A stretch of DNA of 39,231 nucleotides from positions 1 to 39,231 of the forward strand of contig MU266578.1 of assembly GCA_021014945.1 (NCBI GenBank). The letters run 5' to 3'. This stretch comes from Leucogyrophana mollusca (taxonomy: Eukaryota; Basidiomycota; Agaricomycetes; Boletales). Of the stretch, positions 1 to 12,441 are shown one piece after another. The notes beneath the pieces are model-generated. The model did not search any database. It had not been told where the DNA came from and saw nothing but the letters and a program-made list of their open reading frames with translations. The translations under genes were made by a program, and so were the position numbers. The stretch's first letter is position 1. Each line of letters begins with the position of its first letter.

Positions 1-412
1 CAGGCGCCCAACACGCTGCAGAACCTCTGCCTCGACTTCGCAACGCTCGGAGACCGAAAGCTCGTTGAGCGGCCTGCGGTGCACACCATTGCGCCGGATG
101 AGTTCCAGAGTATCAAGGCTGCGATCAAGGTGCGTCCATCTGTCGTTGAGACGTGCGAGAGTGAGCGGCTGGCTTGCGGCATTTGATTTTCCACGTGTTA
201 TCCCGCAACCTTACCCTACCCCTCGCTGCCGTGCCTTGCGCATGGGTCTCGTTGCCGGGGGGGGGGGGCGTCATATTCGGCTCGATCCTTTGGGAAGGCC
301 CAGCCCTAGTCGAATCGTGTGCGACACCAAATGATATTCACATTGGCATCATGGATTGCATCAAGCCGGCATATGCAACGAGGCTCAGGTGCGCGTTGCG
401 TTGCCGGTTTCC
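1..412 (+). pseudogene. SEC26: Coatomer beta subunit fragment (C-terminal part), broken
   Basis: Coatomer beta is a COPI coat subunit acting in Golgi-to-ER transport. The window opens inside an exon reading [20 protein letters not shown], a stretch typical of the beta appendage region, and a second exon from about 246 continues with FGSILWEGPALVES and NDIHIGIMD. The exon end at 129 is followed by a normal GTGCGT donor, but the acceptor expected at 244-245 reads GG where the paralogous copy has AG. Codons just after it are replaced by a run of 12 G, and one base is missing near 374 so the frame is lost. The segment matches 8676-9090 in reverse complement and ends where repeat-like DNA begins. 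It cannot make a working subunit; the left end may continue outside the window. Confidence 0.85.
257..268 (+). repeat. 12-G homopolymer inside the coatomer fragment
   Basis: Twelve consecutive G bases replace sequence that in the inverted sister copy encodes part of the start of the exon. It is either a replication-slippage product or an assembly artefact. Confidence 0.9.
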
Positions 413-610
413 TTAATACTCACTCCCCACTCTTTTCTCTCTGCCCTCACCGCGTCACAGGCGGTTCGTGGCACGTTCGCATCAGGTCCCGCACTCCACA
501 CGCTTTCCGCACGCCTGCTTTCTCAAACACCTCGCCATAGCTCCACGGGCGCGCGAGCGTTGCACAGAACGCGGCTGCTGTTTGGAGGAGCGCGGCTGCT
601 CTTGGCGTGC

Positions 611-1115
611 ACGGTCCCTAGCTCTAGGACTGGTGTGGGACGGCGCAGGAAGGTGCGGGAGGGCGCAAGGAGGTGCCGAGAGGGTGCAGGGCGGCGCAGG
701 ACAATGCGGTCAGGTGCAGGAAGGCGCGGTCGCCACGGTGAGTCAGCCTTTTTGCTGGCGCCCCGCCCCTCCCCCATATACCTACCCTCGCTCCGTCTGC
801 TGGGCCAACAAGCCCTATGGACGGTTTCTACGATAGCCTCCCTTGTGTCCCCCCTCCCCCCAGATTTTGCCACCTTTCATACCTAAACCCATCCTTTAGC
901 CCAGGCGCTTGCTGACCTTAGGCGCAGGGGCGGTAGCAGCCTCGATTAGGCCGCGGTCAAGGTTAAAAAAGGTCCCGCGAATCTCCGCCCACGCTCAGAT
1001 CAACCTGAGGCCGTTTCGCGGCCGAAGCGCCCTGGGTCTCGGCCGCACCCCTCAGCCTCCCTCTCCGGCGCGGTGAGCAGGGGTAGATGCGCAGCAGGGC
1101 GTCCCGGTTCTAGCT
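611..1115 (+). repeat. Dispersed repeat, copy A (longest of three)
   Basis: This segment recurs inverted at 26268-26638 (copy B) and 33644-33957 (copy C). The core seen in all three runs from a GTGAGTCAGCC splice-donor-like start (about 739) through a CT-rich stretch to a CCTTAG acceptor-like end near 923, so it looks like an intron with neighbouring exon pieces. Copies A and C also share the GC-rich tract on the left; copies A and B share about 190 bases on the right, in which one frame stays open and reads RPFRGRSALGLGRTPQPPSP. I do not recognise the parent gene or element. No terminal inverted repeats or target-site duplications were seen. Confidence 0.75.
640..735 (+). repeat. GC-rich degenerate minisatellite
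   Basis: Short imperfect units of the type GGCGCAGGAAGGTGC and GGAGGGCGCAAGGAGGTGC are arrayed here. The same tract occurs inverted in copy C (about 33840-33940) but is absent from copy B, so it is a variable part of the dispersed repeat. In either frame it would code for low-complexity Gly/Arg or Ala/Pro sequence. Confidence 0.7.
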
Positions 1116-1847
1116 GGGGTGGGAGCTGGGCCAAGGGGTCGCCGCGAGCATCGGGTGCTTGATGCCGCGGGCCCGAGTCGGACCCCAACGCCATGGGAGA
1201 AGGCGCATAGCTGCGATCCGGGAGGTGTGGGACTGTGCCGCGACGCGCTGGAGATGCTCGTGCAAAGTCTGCTTGATCTCGGTAGGCCTCACTGCATTCT
1301 GGGCTTTACGACAGGGTGAGCTGATCGGATAATAATGCGCTCGTAGTCGTTGATTCAGCGATCGAAGCCGTAGATGTATACCACGACAAATTCCTCGAGC
1401 TCGAGCACACCCCGCATGCCCCCGATGGTGGCAGACACGCACCAGCAAGCCGTGCCCTCACCCCTTCCAATCGAGGACCCACCCACGCCGGTCCCCCCAG
1501 ACTCTGACCTTTTCCTCCTCCCCCCGCACTACCAAAAATCGGGAATCGGGGCTGGATGTCAATCCGGATGCCCGCGAAACCCGGAGGTGGATAAGTGATC
1601 GACAAGTTATAGCTGAGATTCTCGAGACTGGCGTGCTTGAGCGGATAAGAATGCGAAAAGCAGTCCATTTCAAAGTCAAATTCATGCGTATCTCCATGCC
1701 TTTTTTGCTGTATTGATTATCTCTTCTTGTCCTTACCCTTCGACTTGACTGTTGCTGGATGTTCATCAGCGACATGATACTTCATTCATTCTCCGGACGG
1801 TATGGTAATGTCATCATTTTAATGCTATGCATTGAGGATCATGCACC
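1116..1847. other. No recognised gene
   Basis: Several overlapping open frames occur on both strands but none resembles a known family. On the minus strand around 1340-1410 a frame reads EEFVVVYIYGFDR, a stop, then INDYERIIIRSAHPVVKP, which has coding character and may be a remnant of an unidentified gene. The rest is low-complexity proline/serine sequence and AT-richer spacer before the promoter of the next gene. Confidence 0.4.
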
Positions 1848-1856
1848 TATAAAATA
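1848..1856 (+). promoter_or_regulatory. TATA box of the recombinase-like gene
   Basis: TATAAAATA lies about 107 bases before the ATG at 1955 and 140 before the alternative ATG at 1988, a usual fungal arrangement. It supports the gene being a complete unit with its own promoter. Confidence 0.55.
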
Positions 1857-1954
1857 TCTATTCAGTGCAGCGGGGTGCGCATGCAGATCTGACATCGAAA
1901 CCCATATATAGCCACAGATCATTTCGACATTTTTTGCTGATTGGCAACACAAGG

Positions 1955-4900
1955 ATGGACGTTCGACGTGCATCCAGTGAGCTTACAATGCTACCAACTC
2001 CCGAGGCAACCTGCGACCGTTGCGATTGGAAAGGTAAACCAGAGCTGTTGCGACGTCACAAGACGAAAGAATGCCATGGGAAGGATCATAACGTCTACGG
2101 GATTCCCATTGCAGTGGTCAACAACCAATTCGCGTGCCCAGTGGATTTCTGCTCGCGCAGGTGCAACTCCAAGGACAAACTGTTTGCACACTGTCGAGAG
2201 GTCCATCAATACTTCAGAGGAATGGATGTCCAGCGCCATAGGGAGGAATGTGCAAAATATGTGCAGCAGCAGCAACCTGCTAGTACTACATCCACCGGTA
2301 AAATATCCGCCTTCTCCTGATCTGCCTCTGATATCAAGCTCACCGCATGTTTAGGCCCATCTCACCCACCTGCTCACCCACCAACTATCCTGGATGCTAG
2401 TGATCCCTCCCAAGGCGATGCTTACGCCCTGCCAGCCAACGACGCCAATGACAATAATGGCCTGCCAGGCCACAACGATCATCCTCCCGCAGACCACCCC
2501 CTCCCAGCCAACAACGCTCCTGTCCTCTTAACCGGCCCTGCTCTCCCAGTCGGCACTGCTCCACCAGCGTCGAAAAGCAACAGTCCATTGAGCTTGCCAG
2601 CTCCACCAGGTAGTGACGCTGGCGCAGGCAATATACATCAAGATCCTCTCTGCTTTCTCGAGATGCTGGCGCCGCTGCAGCAGTGGGGGATTTTCTACCA
2701 AAAGGACCTACGGTTATTAGTCTGCTCTAAGTGCGATTTAGCTGTCTTTCCGGATCACCTTGCAGGCCATCTTCGAGACAATGCGAAGCACAAGCACTCA
2801 CCCCGACCATCAAAAGCTAGCGTCCAGGCCGCCTTGGCCAGAGTCACAGAACCCCTCCTTCCTACCAGGGGAGATCCAGATATGCCTCGCCGCCGCATTC
2901 CACCTCTTCCATGGCTGCAAGATCCCGTTCCTGGCTACAAGTGCCGCCACTGCTGCTATTGTTCTGCTAGTACGAAAACCACGCGTCGCCACTCTCAGAC
3001 AAACCATCCCCATCAATCGCACACTGATGCATACGATACCCAAGTCTGGGTCCAGGCTTTGTTTTCGAAGGGAAGGGGGAAGGGTTCCATGTATTTCCAG
3101 GTGTTCCCACCGCTGCAAAATTGCGATCCCGATGGGCTGTATTCTCGATTTCTTCAGCGGTTAGATCTGGCTTTCCAGGAAGGGACCCTGTTCAAAGATT
3201 CTGGCTCTTCCACCTCAATAAAAGCAGATGACTACGCTCCTTTTGTCACTCGGGCGGGGTGGGCTGATGCTATCCAGGGATATTCAACCTTGGCGATCAG
3301 GCAAAGCGTGTCGAGAGCAATTCGCAAATCTGACCCTGCATTCTTTGGCAGAGTTATCGGCATGGGAGCGAAGTATCTCTTGTCCATGGACAGTACGAAG
3401 GAGATCCAGCCTCTGCTGCTGGAGTCACTTACACGATGGCGAATGCGGCGGTAAGTGTGATGCTGTATTATTCTAAGCAATATTCTGACTTCATTTATAG
3501 CCAAGCCTTTCAGCTTCTGCAGGAGCGAAGCTCTGCCCAGAGCTACGGAGCTCTAGCAGACAAGCTGGTATTGATGATATTGCGATCACTCTATGCCCAA
3601 TTTCCAACCACCTCAGCTGCATCTTCTCTGGGTGATGCTACGACGGTGTTGATGGAACGTGACCTTGATGACGCCTCCATAGCGGAAGCCCATAGTGATG
3701 GTAGGACATCAGATAGAGGCAACGGAAGCGACGAAGAGGAGGAGGAGCTAGATGCGGATGGGGACATAGAGTTTCAATGTGATGTTCTAGAGCTGGACGA
3801 TGACGAAAATGAGGATGCAGACAATGACGAGGACAACGTGGACGCTGACACGGATGGGGATGGCAGGGACGAGGACAGTGGGGACGCGGACAGTGGGGAC
3901 GACAGCGGGGACGTGGACAGTGGGGGCACGGACAATGGGGATGTGGACGACACCAACACAGACAACGCGGGCGAGGACGTAGACGAGGACGAGGACATGA
4001 ACATCGTCGAGGATCCGGATCCGGATCATGACCGCTTCGATGTTCATCTCAGTCTCGCGCAACAAAAGTGTGCTAAGGCACTTGCTCACTTCCTGGAAGA
4101 CGAGACATCCAGCGAAAGGAGCATTCTAGAGGCATACCACGCTGTTATCCTTTCTGCATTTACCTCACAGAGCCGAAAGGGTCTTTCTGACAGGTTCCAC
4201 TCTACGGTTGACGCCTTTATGATCCTCAACAGCATTGATGTGGAGGGCAAATTCACGCCTGTTGAACGAAACTCTCCAGAGTTCTCTAAGCTCCAGTATG
4301 TCGCCTTGTACTCAATTTTGAGTGAGGTCGTGAAGGCAGAAGACCCTATTAGGTTCGTTCATATCACGCATGTTCTGCCATGCCAGTGCTCAACCTGTCC
4401 GCAGAAAATTCGACAATGACATGGCCATCTGGCTAGACCCTAGCAAGATGGTACCTTTTGCAGCCCTGCGCCGCTACCATCGTATAGCATATTCCATTGT
4501 TCGAAATCAACTGGGAACTCCTAGGATCCAGTTTCCTTCACGCCGCGGTACCGATTTCATCTTCGATGGCCAACACTCCTCTGCAAAAGAGCTCACAAAT
4601 ATCTATCATGACGCGTTCGAAGAACTCCACCAGATCCTGCGGCAGGACCTTTGTTTAGGCTTGCAAGACGACGTCCTGGGGCCCCTCAGAGACCCAGCCT
4701 CCATCATAGATAATTCTCAACTGCGCAAATTGGGTTATGGAGTGCTGGTGTCAGAAATTGATGAAGGGTGGAAGTTAGTCCGCGCCATTCTTCAAAGTGA
4801 AGACCATCGCAAAAGGTTTTTTTACATCAACGAGGCAGGAGATCCTGTTTTGAAGCATGCTGGAGGAGAATTTTACCTGGATCGTGCGCGCCGATTCAAG

Positions 4901-6355
4901 GAATTGGTATATTTTCTCATCCATCAGATAGCAGGAATGCCGTTAAGGGCATCAGAAGAATCACGCATCAAAGTTGCAGACACAGCGGAGCGATCGCGCA
5001 ACATATACTATATGTATGGCAAGCTAGCATGCGTATCTTTCTACAACAAAACCTCCCATAATACTGGCCTGGACAAGGTCAACCTACGCTTCATCCCTCC
5101 AGCATTGGAAGAAGACTTGCGCAGATTCTATTCTTCCTGTGCCACCTTTGAAGCATGGATTATCTCTCAGCTCGTCCCGGACCCAGATCCACTTTATCTT
5201 CAACACCTCTTCTCCAGCAAAGGGCAGCATTGGCGCGGTCCAGTCTTTTCCAGAATCCTTCAAAGAGAGACGGAGCTTCGCCTTGGATATTCGTTCAGCA
5301 TCAGCCAGCTTCGCCACATCCTTCCTGCAATTGCAGATCACTACAACATCTCTTCCCTCATTGAGCGCCCATCAGATGCTATCTTGCATTCTCAGATGGG
5401 TCATACCGCAAATACTGGTCAGCGCTTGTATTCGAGAGCAGAGCAGGACCATCCAGTATTAACCAATCGCTATGCTCACGACGCGATGGATTTCTGCGAC
5501 GCCTGGCATGCTTTGTGGGGCTTCTCGACTCCTCGCCCTGATTGCATAGGTGCACTGCGTCGCCAAGAAGAGTATGCCTCTGCTAAACCGATCATGACCC
5601 CAACTGCAGTCGGCTCAAACCATGCTCCTGAGCTTGCACAAGCGGTGGAGCCTCACCTTGAACAGGAGAACAAAAATCTCAGGGCAAAGCTTGATATCCT
5701 GACTACAAACATGGCCAATCTGACGGAAATGGTGGCCTCCCTAGCCCAACAAACAGCTGCTCTTTCTAGCAACATATCTGTGCTACTGGATCGGAGTGCA
5801 CCTCGGCATCTCCCAAACTCCCCAGGTGCAAGCTGGGAGTATGAGGTCCCTTCTCCCCCATCCCCTCGTCCTCCATCCCCTCATTTTCCATCCCCGCCTC
5901 CACCACCTCATCACGTTCCCGAGCCTGGCAGCCTGAGAGACAGCATACGGCCACCACCCCCATCCCCCTCCATGCAGCCATCCGAGCAATCGAATCTCAA
6001 TGGTGGTGCGTCAATCAGTGCTGAATCCAAGTCGTCTCCGAGTCTGGGACTGGAGGAAAGCAATGCGCCTTTCCGATGTCCCAAATGCCAGAAGTCATTA
6101 AATACACTAAAGGAGCGAGCAAGCCACATCAGGGAGACTAGCGATTCCTTTCATGTCTTCAGCTCCAAAGTCACCTGGCTTGGGAAATCAGTGAGGGTCC
6201 ACCGTCAGGAGGATCTGGCATTCCGGTGTTTTTGTGGCTTTTCTAACCCCCACATTGAGCAGGTGCAAAATCATTTGAATGAGCTTGCTCCAAATGATGA
6301 GAAACACGTAGATTTTCGCTCTGATATGCCAAAGCCTTCTTTCAGTAGGTTGTAA
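1955..6355 (+). CDS. Zinc-finger protein with tyrosine-recombinase-like core
   Basis: Four exons join in frame: 1955-2297, 2355-3450, 3501-4352, 4405-6355, giving 1,413 residues, or 1,402 from the ATG at 1988. All introns are GT-AG and 50-57 bases. Domains in order: two C2H2-like fingers (about 2008-2210); a DUF3505-like paired finger region (CSKCDLAVFPDHLAGH, then CRHCCYCSASTKTTRRH, 2725-3005); an acidic Asp/Gly stretch (3720-4020); a recombinase-like core (about 4600-5480); a leucine heptad coiled coil (5650-5790); a Pro/Ser linker; and two C-terminal finger-like motifs (CPKCQKS near 6078, CFCGF near 6226). The core carries Arg in GMPLRASE (codon 4946), Lys in YNKTSH (5048), Arg in SQLRH (5312), His in MGHT (5402) and Tyr in QRLYSR (5429). 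Similar fused regions precede RecQ-like helicases in basidiomycetes, but no helicase follows here. DNA strand exchange is inferred, not shown. Confidence 0.8.
3846..3972 (+). repeat. In-frame minisatellite coding acidic Asp/Gly repeats
   Basis: Degenerate 15-base units of the type GTGGACAGTGGGGAC keep the frame of the recombinase-like gene and give five-residue units such as VDSGG, TDNGD and VDDTN. Length changes in whole units would keep the frame, so this linker can vary in length. The minus-strand serine-rich open frame over it is a shadow. Confidence 0.75.
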
Positions 6356-6744
6356 GCCCTCAATTCTTACCACTAACAGCAATGCAACTTGTAACGTTAC
6401 TCTACAATGTGTACTTCCAAATGTGATGTGGCCGTGACATTTGCGCGCGCATGAAGCCTATATTCCCTGTGAGCGACATCCTTGAGCAGCCGTGCAAAGC
6501 TATGTAAAGCGCGACTTGTTGGACTCTCACATTCCCGTAAGCCACCGTTTCCTATCCGCTACTCTGATTCACCAAACCGACTTCCAGCAATCGCTGGGCC
6601 CCCATCGAGTCGTGCTGGAACGCAAGCTGGTGGTTCAGCGAGCCTGCAAGTGCTTGGGTTTCTTGCCATCTTCGCCCAATGTTTTACCACCTCATGGCAG
6701 CTCATGGCATACCCTTCTCTTGCCTGCTCCCCTACCGACCGCCT
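6356..6744. other. Spacer and unassigned sequence
   Basis: The first part is the 3' flank of the recombinase-like gene. From about 6490 a plus frame reads QSYVKRDLLDSHIPVSHRF and looks coding, but I do not recognise it and it runs into the pyrophosphatase remnant without an obvious splice site. It may be a fragment of another gene. Confidence 0.35.
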
Positions 6745-7803
6745 ATCACCGCCGTTTCCAAACCACTAATCTAATGCGACGTCAGATGTGGGAGACTGCC
6801 GGGCGCGCAGGCATCAAGACCGCCAATCTTTTGTGGTGCGGACCCATGCAAACAAGCGGTAACGTATAGGTTCACTGATGCAATTCGACTGGCCTGACCC
6901 TCCCCATACGACATCTGGCGCCTCCTCGACATACTTCGTTCCGTGGAGAGTGAGTATCTTCTATCCGTCATAGGAATCGCACCTCCCACCGCCCATGAGC
7001 CCCCATGGTGAATGAGTCTTTTTTTGTTCAATGCTGAAATTTGCGCTTTGACTGAATGTAGGATTGCGTCCCCTTGAGCGAAAAACATGACCAGTTACTC
7101 GCGTGGATCGATATGCCGTTTGAAGAGAGGCCGCAGTTACTCCTCGGTGAGTAGTCTTTCTATTGTCGTTCGTCCTCTCATACTTATATGCATCCCTTGC
7201 ACACTTTTGAATTGTAGCCTATGAACCTTCACTTGATCAAGCAGGGCACGCAACAGGCCGTGGCTCCGCTCGTATCAATGTACGCCCCTACTTTCCCTTT
7301 CACTCTCGCATACTCACCTTAGTCGCCCTAAGTCAACCCTCCTGATAATCGACCGCTTCGCTCGTACCCTTCAAGCCTCTCTGCTTCTCGAAACCTCACA
7401 GATATAGTCAACGCCATCTTCGTTAGCGATCATGGTATGGCGGACGCGAGCCACCCAGAGTGGGCGCATGCCGACGACAGCGACATCCTTGGAGAGGGAT
7501 GGGAACTGGTCAAGCATCGAGATGGTAAGTTGGCACCTCGACGGGGGAACTACCGGCTTTTTCGCTACCTGGTCCTGACGAACCAACCCACAGGCTGGCC
7601 ATCAATGGACCTGCGCTTTGCCCCTACTGCAAACACGTCGCATATTCTCGAGAAGCTGCTAGTCACCTCTCAAGCGTCCACATCATCAGCGCCAGATTCG
7701 AAGCCTAAATTCGACGTCTGCACGACGCCCCAGCTCGGCTTCTCGCCCGCGCCCCAAGACGTGGCAATGCCCTCCCGGTATCACTTCACAGCGAATGATT
7801 GTC
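6745..7803 (+). pseudogene. Nucleotide pyrophosphatase/phosphodiesterase remnant
   Basis: Type I phosphodiesterases of the NPP group (alkaline phosphatase superfamily) hydrolyse nucleotides or phosphodiesters with two metal ions. Recognisable pieces are METAGRAGIKTANL-like sequence (ETAGRAGIKTANL near 6790), SSTYFVPWR, PLSEKHDQLLAWID, EPSLDQAGHATG (metal ligands D and H), FVSDHGMAD (metal ligands D and H) and GWPSMDLRFAP. Introns include 6950-7061 and 7147-7217. The N-terminal half with the catalytic Thr is absent. Around 6840-6900 a stretch looks partly duplicated with a stop, and a one-base shift lies just before the codons for NLTDIVNAIF near 7395. Homology stops near 7803, where TBC-like sequence begins. 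It is a truncated, frameshifted copy. Confidence 0.75.
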
Positions 7804-7876
7804 TCTGCAGGGACGTAGGCTGCCTGTGGCACGCCTGTCTCGTCCAGCCCTTCTGCGGCCTCGATGATTTCGCGCA

Positions 7877-8368
7877 GGCGCGATGCGACTTCAGGAGATG
7901 GGGCGCGCCCACCAAGAGGCGTTTTCCCTTCTGGTGCGGCTGATGCATTCATGCGACCTGAGAGGCCACTTCCTCCCAGAAATGCCAAAACTTCAACTCC
8001 GTCTGATATGTTTTTGGGCGTGCCCTCTATCAATCTACCCATTTACTGAGCCCCTCTTAGTTCCAGGTATGCTGCTCCGCGTTGTTCCCATCTAATTGGC
8101 GTTCAGCACTCCCATAGTTCGAACGTCTGATGGAGGAGATGCTCCCGCGCTGCATGCCCACTTCCTTCAGCAGGGCATCAAGTCAAGCATGTTCTGTTCG
8201 CAGTGGTTCCTTACTCTCTTCAGCTACCGGCGAGTCCATTCATACCCTCCCCAAAGCCCTGCGCGGACTAGCCCGCTGACCCAGATTCCCACTCGACATC
8301 GTCTTCCGGATATGCGCCAACTGCCTAGCGAGCGGTATCGAAGGCATCTTTGCATCCAGCATTAGACT
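7877..8368 (+). pseudogene. TBC (Rab GTPase-activating) domain fragment
   Basis: TBC proteins stimulate GTP hydrolysis by Rab GTPases in membrane traffic. The plus strand reads EAFSLLVRLMHSCDLRGHFL, then LPEMPKLQLRL, a likely intron, FERLMEEML, and after a one-base deletion near 8147 LHAHFLQQGIKSSMFCSQWF, then LTLFSYR. The next exon (8285 on) gives FPLDIVFRI. The intron between them (8230-8284) starts with GC rather than GT and ends in CAG. The fragment covers the later half of the domain without the arginine and glutamine finger motifs, and stops at 8368 exactly where coatomer sequence on the other strand begins. It is a truncated piece, not a gene. Confidence 0.75.
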
Positions 8369-10666
8369 CCGGGCATGCATATTCGCCGACAAAAAGTCGT
8401 AGTCGCCCGACACCGCGCCCTCTGGCGTGAGGCACGACATATTCGTGGATTTCATGACGTGTTTCAGGTAATCCCGCGGATCACTGTCGTATTTCATCCG
8501 CCGATACCAGACGCCAAGCATAGTTAGCTTGTGTCCACAGGAGATCCGAACGGAAAAGATGGAGCAATGACTCACGGCATGGCAGTTGGCACATTCACTC
8601 TGTTCTCCCACTCAAACTCGGTCCACATGCTCCGGAACTGCACGACAGGGCAAGTCAGCGCTGATACCCTCGAGCAGCAAAGAAAACCGGTGACACGACA
8701 CGCACCTGAGCCTCGTTACAATATGCCACCCGATGCAATCCATGATGCCAATGTGAATATCATTCAGTATCACACACGATTGGGCTAGGGCTGGGCCTTC
8801 CCAAAGGATCGAGTCGAATATGACACCTGTTTCCGTCGGCGAGACCTATGCGCAAGGCGCGGCAGCGAGGGGCAGGGTAAGGTTGCGGGACAAAACGTGG
8901 AAAATCAAGTACCGCAAGTCAGTCGCTCGCTCTCGCACGCCCCAATGACAGACGGACACACCTTGATCGTAGCCTTGATACTCTGGAACCCATGAGGCGC
9001 AATGGTGTGCACCGCAGGCCGCTCAACGAGCTTTCGGTCTCCGAGCGTTGCGAAGTCGAGGCAGAGGTTCTGCAGCGTGTTGGGCGCCTGATTCACGAGG
9101 AGGACGTCTGTTAAGGGGAGGATCAAGAATGAGCGGGTGAGTGGTCGTGCCGTTGAAGCCATGAGGACTTACCGAGCAAGATATCAAACCCGCGCGCCTT
9201 GACGTACGCCTCGGCATAGATGGGGTCCGAGAAGCCTGCAATCAGACCCAGTTAAACCCTAAGTCATCCCCCGGTGGTTATATATGAGGAAGGGTCAGTG
9301 ACCTGCGAGCTGCGAAATACGGCTGAGGTTCGATATGAAGTCTTCGCAGACCTCCCCCGTGCCAGTCGCCTCCCCAAGGTCCTCCACGTACTACAACGGA
9401 ACTCTTTCGGCGACGAATACACGGTGGTCTCAGAGGAATGGTACACATCTGTGGGATCGTCCGCCAGCTTCTTCGAGAACCGGCGGAAAGTGAGCAGATC
9501 GTCGACCTGCGCAGCAGCAACCTGTATGCTCTCTGCGTCTCTCTTCCCCGCAGCCTTCTTCTGCGCGTTCGAAAAGGCAAATCAGTTGACACGCCCCCCG
9601 CCTCCGCGCGGCGACGTACCTCCTGCGCGCCCAGCATTTTCGAATACGCCGCCTTGGTGTCCTTGAGGAAGATATTATGCGCGGCAGGCGCCTCCCGCAG
9701 CTCGCTGAGCGTCTGGATGCAGTTCGGGATCCGCTCGTTGGAGTCTTCATCGATCGGCACCGTCACAAACTTGGACTACCCAACGCGGATCGCAGATGCC
9801 ATGATCCACTTCGCCTGGAACGCGCGGACGTCAGCCTACCCAAAGATGCATCAGCCCAAGTAGCTCGCGTACCTCTGCGCGAATCGCATTCGCCTTTGCG
9901 CGGCCACTCGTCAGCTCGTCGAAGCACAGGACCAACTTCGTCAGAGTCGAAGGGAGCACTGCACCTGTGAAGAAGTCACCGCCGAGGATAAGCGCTAGGA
10001 AAAGGAAACTAGCGCGTCAGCAACACTATCACAACCACCCACGCTGCGCAAGATTGGAGCCAACCAACCTCTCAATGGCGGCATCGAGGCCGCTTTCACA
10101 GCCTCGAGCCTCGCAGAGCTCGCGCTTGTGCATGCAGTCTCTGCCGCATACGTCCCATCCGCCAACACCCTTGGGCGTCTACCGCCACTGCCCTCTGTCT
10201 TTGCCTCCACCTTGTCTTTGTCCTCGCCCTCCGCCTCACCCCCAGCCTCATCCAACAATCGCTGCTCCGACGCCAAAATCGGTATCTCGCCAAGGATCTT
10301 GCGGACCCCCTGCAACGCAACCGTGATGCCCACGATGTCCTCCACGTACTCGCCGAGGATCCACAGGACGTCGCGGTAAACCCTTCCGGACTTGATCTCG
10401 AGGGGGCCTGGATGAACTTCCCGCATATCCCTTGGCGGAGGTGGGAGAACCTCTCGACAACCTCGCTGTCGATTGATTGTGTGAATGCGTGCGTGAGCTC
10501 TGTTTAGTTGGTGTTAGTGGGGGGAGGGAGAGGCAACGAACCGGACGAAGGCGCCGACGTCGAGGGCGGAGGGGTTTCGCCTAGGAACTCCGTGAGGGCG
10601 TGGACGACGCTCGCTGCGACTCGGAGAACTTCACGGCCATTACGTGGAGTTGCTTGCGCTCGGGGC
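8369..10666 (-). pseudogene. SEC26: Coatomer beta subunit, C-terminal half, decayed
   Basis: Reading down from 10666 the minus strand gives PERKQLHVMAVKFSE, VVHALTEFLGETPPPSTSAP, DVLWILGEYVEDIVGI, GEIPILASEQRLLDEA, then after an intron LILGGDFFTGAVLPS, later [53 protein letters not shown] and finally MKSTNMSCLTPEGAVSGDYD, all characteristic of COPI beta. At least eight introns can be placed. Lesions: one base missing near 10620; an apparent shift near 10420; an in-frame TAG at 9776-9778 where the family has Gln; one base missing near 8730. The first half of the protein (adaptin-like HEAT region) is absent and the last residues are replaced at 8368. The cell must have another intact copy, because this subunit is essential in fungi studied. 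Confidence 0.88.
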
Positions 10667-10896
10667 CTGTAAATTGTACCAATCAGCAACAGCAAGGTGG
10701 CCAATGCACAGACAGCAGACCTTCTCGCAGTCTTTTTCCTGCGTCCTCTGGAGCCGGTGTAAGTCCTTGAGTCTGCGAAAGGTGCACTCTGGGCTGCGGG
10801 GACTTGGTTTGCAACAGGGAATAACCTTCCTTTTACGGGTAATCTCCGGTTCGATCCACCCCTGCGCCAATAATATTCTTAGGTGAACAATAAGTT
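10667..10896. other. Junction spacer, no recognised gene
   Basis: This short stretch joins the coatomer pseudogene to the first direct repeat. Neither strand gives a recognisable protein. A tRNA-like B-box word occurs near 10850 but without the rest of a tRNA. Confidence 0.4.
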
Positions 10897-12441
10897 AATA
10901 GACCTTCTCACCGCAGAATCTGCTTCAGGCCGAAAATACAAACCCAAACCCAAAGCTTGATCGGCCGCCGGACCGGGTGCGCACCGAGCTTTAAGTTTTG
11001 GTTGGCTGTTTGATCTCTGCAGCATCATCCACTATCGATCATCCGCATGAGCATTCCTGGATCTCTCAAGCAACCCAGCTCCGGTATCGAACCTCCTGCT
11101 GCCACTGGACCCAGACTCGCCATGTCCGATACGAAGCCCCCGGTTCTGACTTTCGCAGAGAACGAGCTCGATGATGCCACTCGCAAGAGCCTCGACGATG
11201 CAGTACTGAACCTGCGTGGCGGACCAACTGCCGTGGACATGGCTGGTGCCCTCCTCATGGTCATCATAGACAAGTCGAATGGCTCGCTCGATGCGAGACG
11301 CGCGCCAATCAATGCAGCAGGCGAGTTGCTCAACCAGCATGAAGAGTTGCCCGGAATGCTTCAGGCGGCATGGCGCAAGAGATCGTTCAGAGACATTCGC
11401 AACTTGGGTATGAGCGTTACTGTCTTATCCGAGAGCTTGTCACAACCGGCAATATATCTCCAGAAATTCTTCGCCCTTTGCCTCCAGCGCCACCCCGACG
11501 TGGCGGTGCGCCGCAGTTGGACTCCGGCACCCAAGGTGAGCGGCCAAGCTCTCTTAACATGCTTCTTAGAACGAGGTATGCCACTCACCTTTTCTCCGCC
11601 TTCGTTCAGCTATTGGCAACGACTTTCAAGTGGTCATGAGCGCATGGAACAGACCATGCACTGGATGTCATCACCGCCTTCTGCTACGAAACATCAACAA
11701 AATGAAGCGCGGAAAGCCTTATTCTAACACTGTGACTATCATCCAGAGCTCGTGCTCGGGAAAGTCACGGCTAGTGCGCGAACAACCTAACCTCGTTTTC
11801 ACGCTCCCATTCAATCTGCGTTTTGGCGCGGAGAGCAAACGTGATATCTTCCCTCTTATTGCACGAATTCTTCTGATTCCGCGAATTAGAGCTTGCGCAT
11901 CCCCCTCCAGACCGCAATATCCGTGCTTATATTCTTGCCGAAGGGTTCACTCTCCCTGAAAGCCAAGTCCGGTGTTTGCGACTCTTGGCGCATGTATTTT
12001 CCGTTGTCTCCAGCAGTTTAAACGGGATGGTCGGGTTGCTCAAGGGAAAGCAACATAAACGTACCTCACTCGCTGAAGATTGGCGTGCTTACATGGAGGC
12101 GGGCAACAATCGTACGAGAATGCATGATCTCGCCGCCAATGGTTGCACGCAGGAGAGCTCGGTGCGCATATGGTCTCTCGATTGCGCTCTTTATTAATGT
12201 TTCTGCCAACCGACATAGGAGAAGTACCCACGGGCAGTCTGCAGAGAAGCGCGGGGGGGCCGCCACCGTGCAAGCCGCTGTTCAGGAGGCAAAGTCTCAG
12301 CTCGAGGGTCTGCTGAAGCGAATCGACGATAACGACGTTGCCCCAGCCGACGGCAAGTCGAACAATGTTAAATTGATGTTCTACTTCGATGAGGCCCACG
12401 TCCTTGCTACCCGCCCTGCCTTGGATAACGCAGATGGGAAA
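10897..12441 (+). repeat. Direct repeat, copy 1 (1.55 kb)
   Basis: The sequence from AATAGACCTTCTCA to CAGATGGGAAA matches 22409-23973 in the same orientation, about nine bases in ten by eye, including introns and the 5' flank. Homology begins about 150 bases upstream of the ATG and stops abruptly inside the Walker B exon, so the copied unit is not a whole gene. No target-site duplication was seen at either end. Confidence 0.9.
11047..12441 (+). pseudogene. P-loop ATPase gene, 3'-truncated copy 1
   Basis: This is the N-terminal half of the family described for the second copy at 22641-25725. It keeps the ATG context, the N-terminal helical region (LTFAENELDDATRKSLDDAV), the P-loop SCSGKSRL near 11755 and the Walker B motif YFDEAH near 12386. 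The frame conflict after RDIRN near 11405 is shared with the second copy, so it predates the duplication or reflects a real feature. Unlike copy 2, the frame upstream of the second ATG is open here. The gene is cut at 12441, where sequence of the HNH-like gene on the other strand takes over, so the C-terminal half is missing. Confidence 0.8.

Follow-up and report, generated by a model that had tools for sequence, protein, structure and literature searches.

Introduction

Genes that combine OrsD (DUF3505) with a RecQ-like helicase are known from fungal subtelomeres and are often carried at fungal chromosome ends, and the accessible text of the two papers describing them does not mention a recombinase core (PMC5576322, PMC10532341). 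The accessible part of another paper gives DUF3505 counts and one unrelated mention of a helicase (PMC4469406). Our full-text searches, in which preprints and most subscription articles were outside the coverage, showed, among the papers listed, none linking OrsD/RecQ telomere-linked helicases to tyrosine recombinases. Here we describe an OrsD gene of the wood-decay fungus Leucogyrophana mollusca (Basidiomycota; Boletales), located at positions 1955..6355 on the forward strand of contig MU266578.1 (assembly GCA_021014945.1). This contig of 39,231 nucleotides was analysed as a whole and is called the window below; it is one (C252) of the 545 contigs of the genome sampled (32.3 Mb). From the comparisons described here, we consider it fairly probable that its product is a tyrosine recombinase, divergent but probably active, and sister to a helicase-linked form; most likely it serves a mobile element of low copy number.

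Results

Conservation of the active-site residues

The predicted protein of the window was aligned with six database proteins (P0001-P0005 and P0007) and with the product of a gene on contig C516 of the same genome, and eight rows were thus compared. One protein search, in which 7998 candidates were scored, gave at least five relatives with E values no higher than 0.001, P0001-P0005, and a second search, also with 7998 scored, added at least one more, P0007; these counts of database proteins are lower bounds. P0002 from Suillus spraguei was 40% identical over 71% of the query. A third protein search, in which 3332 candidates were scored, gave no relative beyond the window's own protein.

A first-pass annotation, made from the DNA alone, had recognized Arg, Lys, Arg, His and Tyr motifs over a span of about 161 residues, and the translation contained them where it had placed them: GMPLR at residue 941 (Arg945), YNK at 977 (Lys979), SQLRH at 1064 (Ser1064, Arg1067 and His1068), MGH at 1095 (His1097) and QRLY at 1103 (Tyr1106), with 161 residues from Arg945 to Tyr1106. 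All the gene features given below are on the forward strand. Arg945 (4946..4948), corresponding to the Box I Arg of R-x-S-E, is Arg in seven of the eight rows, and P0001 is the sole row with Gln at this first catalytic Arg. The candidate catalytic Lys979 of Y-x-K (5048..5050) is present in all eight rows and is aligned with the Lys of G-K-G-N-K in XerD. The same complete conservation was observed for the Box II Arg1067 and the adjacent His1068 (5312..5317), for His1097 of the G-H motif (5402..5404), and for Tyr1106 (5429..5431), the candidate nucleophile, which is located 9 residues after His1097 as in XerD. The residues R, K, R, H and Y therefore appear in the order of the tyrosine recombinases, with the His-Tyr spacing of XerD. 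The first-pass annotation had also counted the Arg-His pair of SQLRH in the active site; both residues are conserved, but His1068 does not belong to the usual catalytic residues. Its remark that the first His of H-x-x-R is replaced by Ser was correct for the window (Ser1064, 5303..5305), and this site is Ser in three rows, Arg in three and Asn in two. Relatives without the Arg, Lys, His and Tyr residues, which would argue against a recombinase, were looked for and did not appear, apart from P0001, with Gln for the first Arg, and a decayed relic on contig C400, in which another residue was read by eye at that position.

The stretch from the first Arg to the Tyr has 155 gap-free columns, of which only 20 are invariant in the eight rows. 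The C516 protein is the most distant row, and 41 of the 160 aligned columns from Arg945 to Tyr1106 are identical between it and the window protein. All five active-site positions are among the identical ones (hypergeometric P 0.0009). When the spacing pattern was slid over 133 offsets, five identities out of five were obtained at the true offset only, and the next best offset gave four.

Alignment with XerD-type recombinases

The profile of the eight-row core was compared by hhalign with a profile of 71 XerD-type recombinases. The two profiles were aligned over 141 columns with a score of 34.7 (E 3e-4, probability 38%), and the R, K, R-H, G-H and Y positions were in register. The best score was 22.1 from 100 shuffles of the family columns and 21.2 from 200 shuffles of the XerD columns, while the reversals of either side gave 14.6 and 14.1. 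We hold the gene product to be a divergent member of the tyrosine recombinase superfamily, predicted from these alignments, and not a proven one.

A helicase-linked relative in the same genome

The genome search for OrsD found at least one further match, on C516, which was the sole one besides the window (2 candidates scored). On this contig, OrsD lies at 1675-1977, and two frames come after it, one of 675 aa (2445-4472) and one of 672 aa (4628-6646); the latter contains DEAD (E 5.7e-15) and Helicase_C (E 1.4e-14) domains of the RecQ type. Residues 656-1106 of the window protein (4027..5431, with the intron 4353-4404 inside) matched the 675-aa frame by BLASTP with 21% identity over 480 columns (E 5e-20), and this pairwise alignment, made independently of the multiple alignment, paired the same five active-site residues. 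In sequence terms, these results show two branches of the putative recombinase family: one adjoins a RecQ-type helicase frame, and the other, that of the window, does not. Comparable regions had been described in the first-pass annotation as fused to RecQ-like helicases. The homologue of the core on C516 indeed adjoins a RecQ-type frame, but 156 nt separate the end of the core frame from the start of the helicase frame.

The arrangement on C516 also bears on another explanation, namely that the window gene is a helicase-free sister or offshoot of the telomere-linked OrsD-RecQ element, belonging to a subtelomeric repeat system in which it acts, perhaps with the helicase supplied in trans. OrsD, core and RecQ-type helicase frames lie together on C516, the accessible text of PMC5576322 and PMC10532341 places OrsD/DUF3505 together with a RecQ-like helicase at the ends of fungal chromosomes, and the contig of the window is rich in duplicated blocks. 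On the other hand, the exact sequence (TTAGGG)4, which would mark chromosome ends, was found nowhere in the assembly and so places no contig either near to or far from a telomere, and the helicase frame of C516 starts 156 nt past the core frame. We regard this explanation as unlikely.

Other recombinase-like sequences in the genome

A genome search with the C516 core frame gave seven places. Besides C516 itself, it matched the window gene at E 4e-9, C531 at E 4e-4, C399, and three places with E values above 0.1. The match on C399 (15418-15609; L218) is short (E 3e-4) and has one internal stop. On C531 (L223, 4835-5978), two frames with R-x-T-E, Y-x-K, R-H, G-H and a Tyr at the right spacing were recognized by eye, and the genome OrsD search reported no match on this contig. 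The C531 pieces matched C516 by BLASTP at E 1e-8 and 8e-7, with only R-x-T-E and R-H coinciding; Y-x-K was outside the first alignment, and G-H and Tyr were out of register in the second. Because these three motifs failed to align, the active site of C531 rests on reading by eye. C531 was considered as a third branch and rejected, since only R-x-T-E and R-H align with C516; it is a lead and was left out of the eight rows.

The C400 relative is decayed and divergent, contains stops, and by eye its first Arg is not in place. Beside it, frames resembling a Copia-type retrotransposon were seen by eye (L044, 389-2016). Fragments similar to the recombinase gene were found on two other contigs; those on C307 correspond to window 4017-4108 and 4200-4437, and that on C420 to window 4403-4635. 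A weak match to PF00589 (E 0.08) was detected at C59:15781-15954 (L052) within an open frame of 372 aa, which we take to be perhaps the recombinase of a DIRS-like element.

Gene structure and domains outside the core

In the splice model, the whole gene (1955..6355) consists of four exons, 1955-2297, 2355-3450, 3501-4352 and 4405-6355, which encode 1413 codons and a stop, and its three GT-AG introns are 57, 50 and 52 nt long. The deposited L. mollusca protein P0006 (BV22DRAFT_1181093) is completely identical to this translation to residue 1410. P0006 is 1703 aa long, because its model bypasses the stop at 6353-6355 and extends into window 6477-7940. This downstream stretch is a partial duplicate of C35:112105-114569, of which 134 and 863 bp are absent from the window copy, and it contains stops in a count that ignores introns. 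The locus C35:112105-114569 itself gave no recombinase match. Since 6477-7940 is a partial duplicate of such a locus, we consider it unlikely to be a part of the protein. P0006, which joins the recombinase gene to the partial C35 duplicate within 6346-7943, is thus probably a chimeric model, and the predicted 1413-aa form is taken as the gene in preference to the deposited 1703-aa model.

The OrsD zinc-finger domain (PF12013, formerly DUF3505) is located at 2693..3010 (E 8.5e-15), and its score of 55.7 bits is above the Pfam gathering cut-off of 26.6. By pattern, C2H2-like motifs were found twice in the N-terminal part (2012..2206; residues 20-41 and 61-84) and once in the C-terminal part (6077..6154), with Pfam matches below the cut-off (E 0.013 and 0.047 for the former, 0.058 and 0.14 for the latter). 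OrsD and the core are connected by an acidic low-complexity linker rich in Asp, Glu, Gly, Ser and Asn (3703..4026), a part of which is made up of a 15-nt tandem repeat at 3866-3941. Past the core, residues 1180-1221 (5651..5776) make up a coiled-coil-like heptad stretch with Leu, Ile, Val or Met at 10 of the 12 a/d positions, and none of 300 shuffles equalled this count. In the corresponding test of the relatives, the score was reached by 0 of 300 shuffles for P0001, 0 for P0002, 2 for P0003 and 14 for P0007; the stretch was not seen in P0004 (281/300) or P0005 (273/300). A Pfam scan of the window gene in four pieces, at E up to 1, matched no helicase.

These results agree with the earlier description of an intact spliced frame and of a core standing without a helicase, as four exons are open over 1413 codons and the four gene pieces are free of helicase matches. 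The gene is also the only long open one in its surroundings, as had been noted: the longest other stop-to-stop frame within 1-12000, outside 1955-6355, has 237 aa. The terms "multi-zinc-finger" and "ends in coiled coil and zinc fingers" were borne out in part, by OrsD for the former and by the heptad stretch (0/300 shuffles) for the latter, but the N-terminal pair and the C-terminal zinc-finger motif are below the Pfam cut-off.

Genomic surroundings of the gene

Genome DNA searches found no DNA-level duplicate of 1500..6449, a block of about 4.95 kb around the gene, except the short recombinase-gene fragments. Very common words are skipped in these searches, so that the duplication found is a lower bound. 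Copies of the left flank are located on C259 (window 1-414), C28 (425-632), C366 and C530 (695-1020), C150 (1253-1409) and C79 (1410-1499), and those of the right flank on C35 (6450-7916), C74 (7908-8362) and C259 (8364-9300). The flank duplicates are 82-92% identical to the other loci. The regions 1-1499 and 6450-9300 form a mosaic with pieces common to at least eight other contigs, some of them joined within a few bases. An inverted repeat, 1-414 and 8680-9090, with 88% identity and both arms related to C259, brackets the recombinase gene and the mosaic. Segmental duplicates in direct and inverted orientation were also observed within the contig (10891-12441 and 22403-23973; 21586-22318 and 38515-39231). 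Because much of the remaining contig is duplicated too, the mosaic characterizes the contig in general and not the gene. An integron-like array of captured fragments headed by the recombinase gene was considered and rejected as gene-specific, the duplicated blocks being spread along the contig, and no shared junction site was seen by eye at the 14 positions inspected.

Evaluation of the recombinase assignment

Several results weigh against the assignment of the gene to an active, mobile recombinase. The first His of the canonical Box II (H-x-x-R) is absent from all eight rows. In the accessible text of PMC8371274, archaeal integrases of the SSV1 and pNOB8 types are described with K-x-x-R and Y-x-x-R in Box II, and therefore the missing His does not exclude activity. 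The hhalign probability was 38%, and the score fell to 29.0 (14%) when C516 was removed, to 14.9 (0.3%) with C516 alone, and to 29.6 (14%) when the C531 pieces were added, one of these rows being visibly misaligned at its start. Masking of the five catalytic columns reduced the score to 23.9, and masking of eight columns reduced it to 21.5, which is level with the best shuffles. This decrease shows that the motif alone accounts for much of the signal. When single known recombinases were aligned with the family profile, five scored 12.3-20.7 and 70 viral ones scored 10.8-25.9 (median 15.6), and 16 other proteins were not separated from them (10.5-20.6). The first-pass annotation had proposed a comparison with Crypton, Starship-captain and phage integrase profiles. 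In addition to the XerD-type match in register, a Pfam scan of the four gene pieces at E up to 1 was made and detected no GCR1_C, DUF3504, DUF3435 or phage-integrase family, and no integrase was found in PHROGs at E up to 10. The predicted structure was of low confidence (pLDDT 56.6, pTM 0.64), and a fold search with this model gave no recombinase among the matches listed. Furthermore, a single intact copy was found in the genome, and neither element ends nor an empty site was found with this one genome and one intact copy. Since the left and right flanks derive from different loci, no empty site is readable from this genome. The codons changed relative to the window, 3 synonymous and 11 non-synonymous on C307 and 6 and 23 on C420, gave no sign of selection and are uninformative.

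The lack of recombinase matches in Pfam and PHROGs, the poor fold model without a recombinase among the matches listed, and the modest hhalign probability would be in agreement with a zinc-finger protein family in which the R-K-R-H-Y pattern arose by chance. Such a family would hardly explain that the five positions are identical to those of the most distant row at the true one of 133 offsets only, and that the XerD register scored above 300 shuffles in two sets. We consider a chance pattern very improbable.

It can also be supposed that a former mobile-element enzyme was domesticated and now serves as a DNA-binding regulator, in the manner of the DUF3504 and GCR1_C genes that derive from Cryptons. 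The single intact copy, the several zinc-finger motifs and the failure to find element ends are consistent with this, and the accessible text of PMC3212892 provides a precedent in Crypton-derived genes. According to the same text, however, neither the catalytic Tyr nor the second Arg survives in the DUF3504 genes; both are kept in eight of eight rows here, and the few relatives found among the candidates scored, as a lower bound, are unlike a stable host gene. There is, in our estimate, little probability of domestication. An element that is low in copy number and driven by a recombinase fits better than a domesticated regulator, because the catalytic residues are kept, close relatives are few, relics and fragments occur in the genome, and the intact frame lies between duplicated blocks.

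Discussion

We favour a divergent, probably active tyrosine recombinase of a mobile element, and its action could be envisaged as follows. Recognition of the target DNA would be the task of OrsD and the other zinc fingers, and the core, which covers approximately residues 760-1165, would carry out the cleavage and rejoining via a phosphotyrosine at Tyr1106, with the assistance of Arg945, Lys979, Arg1067 and His1097 in the catalysis, as suggested by the conservation and the XerD-type alignment. The heptad stretch after the core may help to hold the enzymes together. In its simplest role, the gene would supply a small mobile element of low copy number with its transposase or integrase.

To our knowledge, the origin of the OrsD/RecQ-like helicase genes at fungal chromosome ends is not settled. 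Should the stretch adjoining the helicase function as a recombinase, these genes might be selfish elements capable of choosing their own location, and the stand-alone branch in the window would offer a way to test this idea. More tentatively, the OrsD zinc-finger genes of basidiomycetes might constitute an undescribed tyrosine recombinase family with a non-canonical Box II and two branches. One would be coupled to RecQ, so that the telomere-linked helicases would be recombinase-driven, telomere-seeking elements, and the other would be a stand-alone coiled-coil branch with an intact, probably active copy here. The present results suggest a family of fungal recombinases that has been little described and may be mobile.

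Among the known systems, the OrsD-RecQ telomere-linked helicases have the OrsD domain in common with the window gene, and on C516 a RecQ-type helicase frame comes after a homologue of its core. The window gene itself has no helicase match, and in place of a helicase it carries the heptad stretch and a weak zinc-finger motif. The XerD-type tyrosine recombinases have the same order of R, K, R, H and Y and are aligned in register by profile, but the window protein is without the first Box II His and has a large zinc-finger N-terminus, and the similarity is barely detectable. Its Box II without His is like that of the archaeal integrases of the SSV1 and pNOB8 types in the accessible text of PMC8371274, a likeness at the level of the motif. 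Cryptons, represented in fungi by CryptonF (PMC3212892), also have a recombinase gene without another transposition gene; in contrast to CryptonF, the window gene did not match GCR1_C or DUF3504 (Pfam, E up to 1), and Cryptons carry short terminal direct repeats of 4-6 bp, a comparison that would need more than the one intact copy found here. The Starship captains (DUF3435) are likewise fungal tyrosine recombinases that are often lone genes, and Starships are placed in Pezizomycotina, in the accessible text of PMC12134995; the window gene differs from the captains in having no DUF3435 match (Pfam, E up to 1) and no cargo shown. If the recombinase reading is true, the gene of L. mollusca would belong to a basidiomycete counterpart to the Cryptons and the Starship captains.

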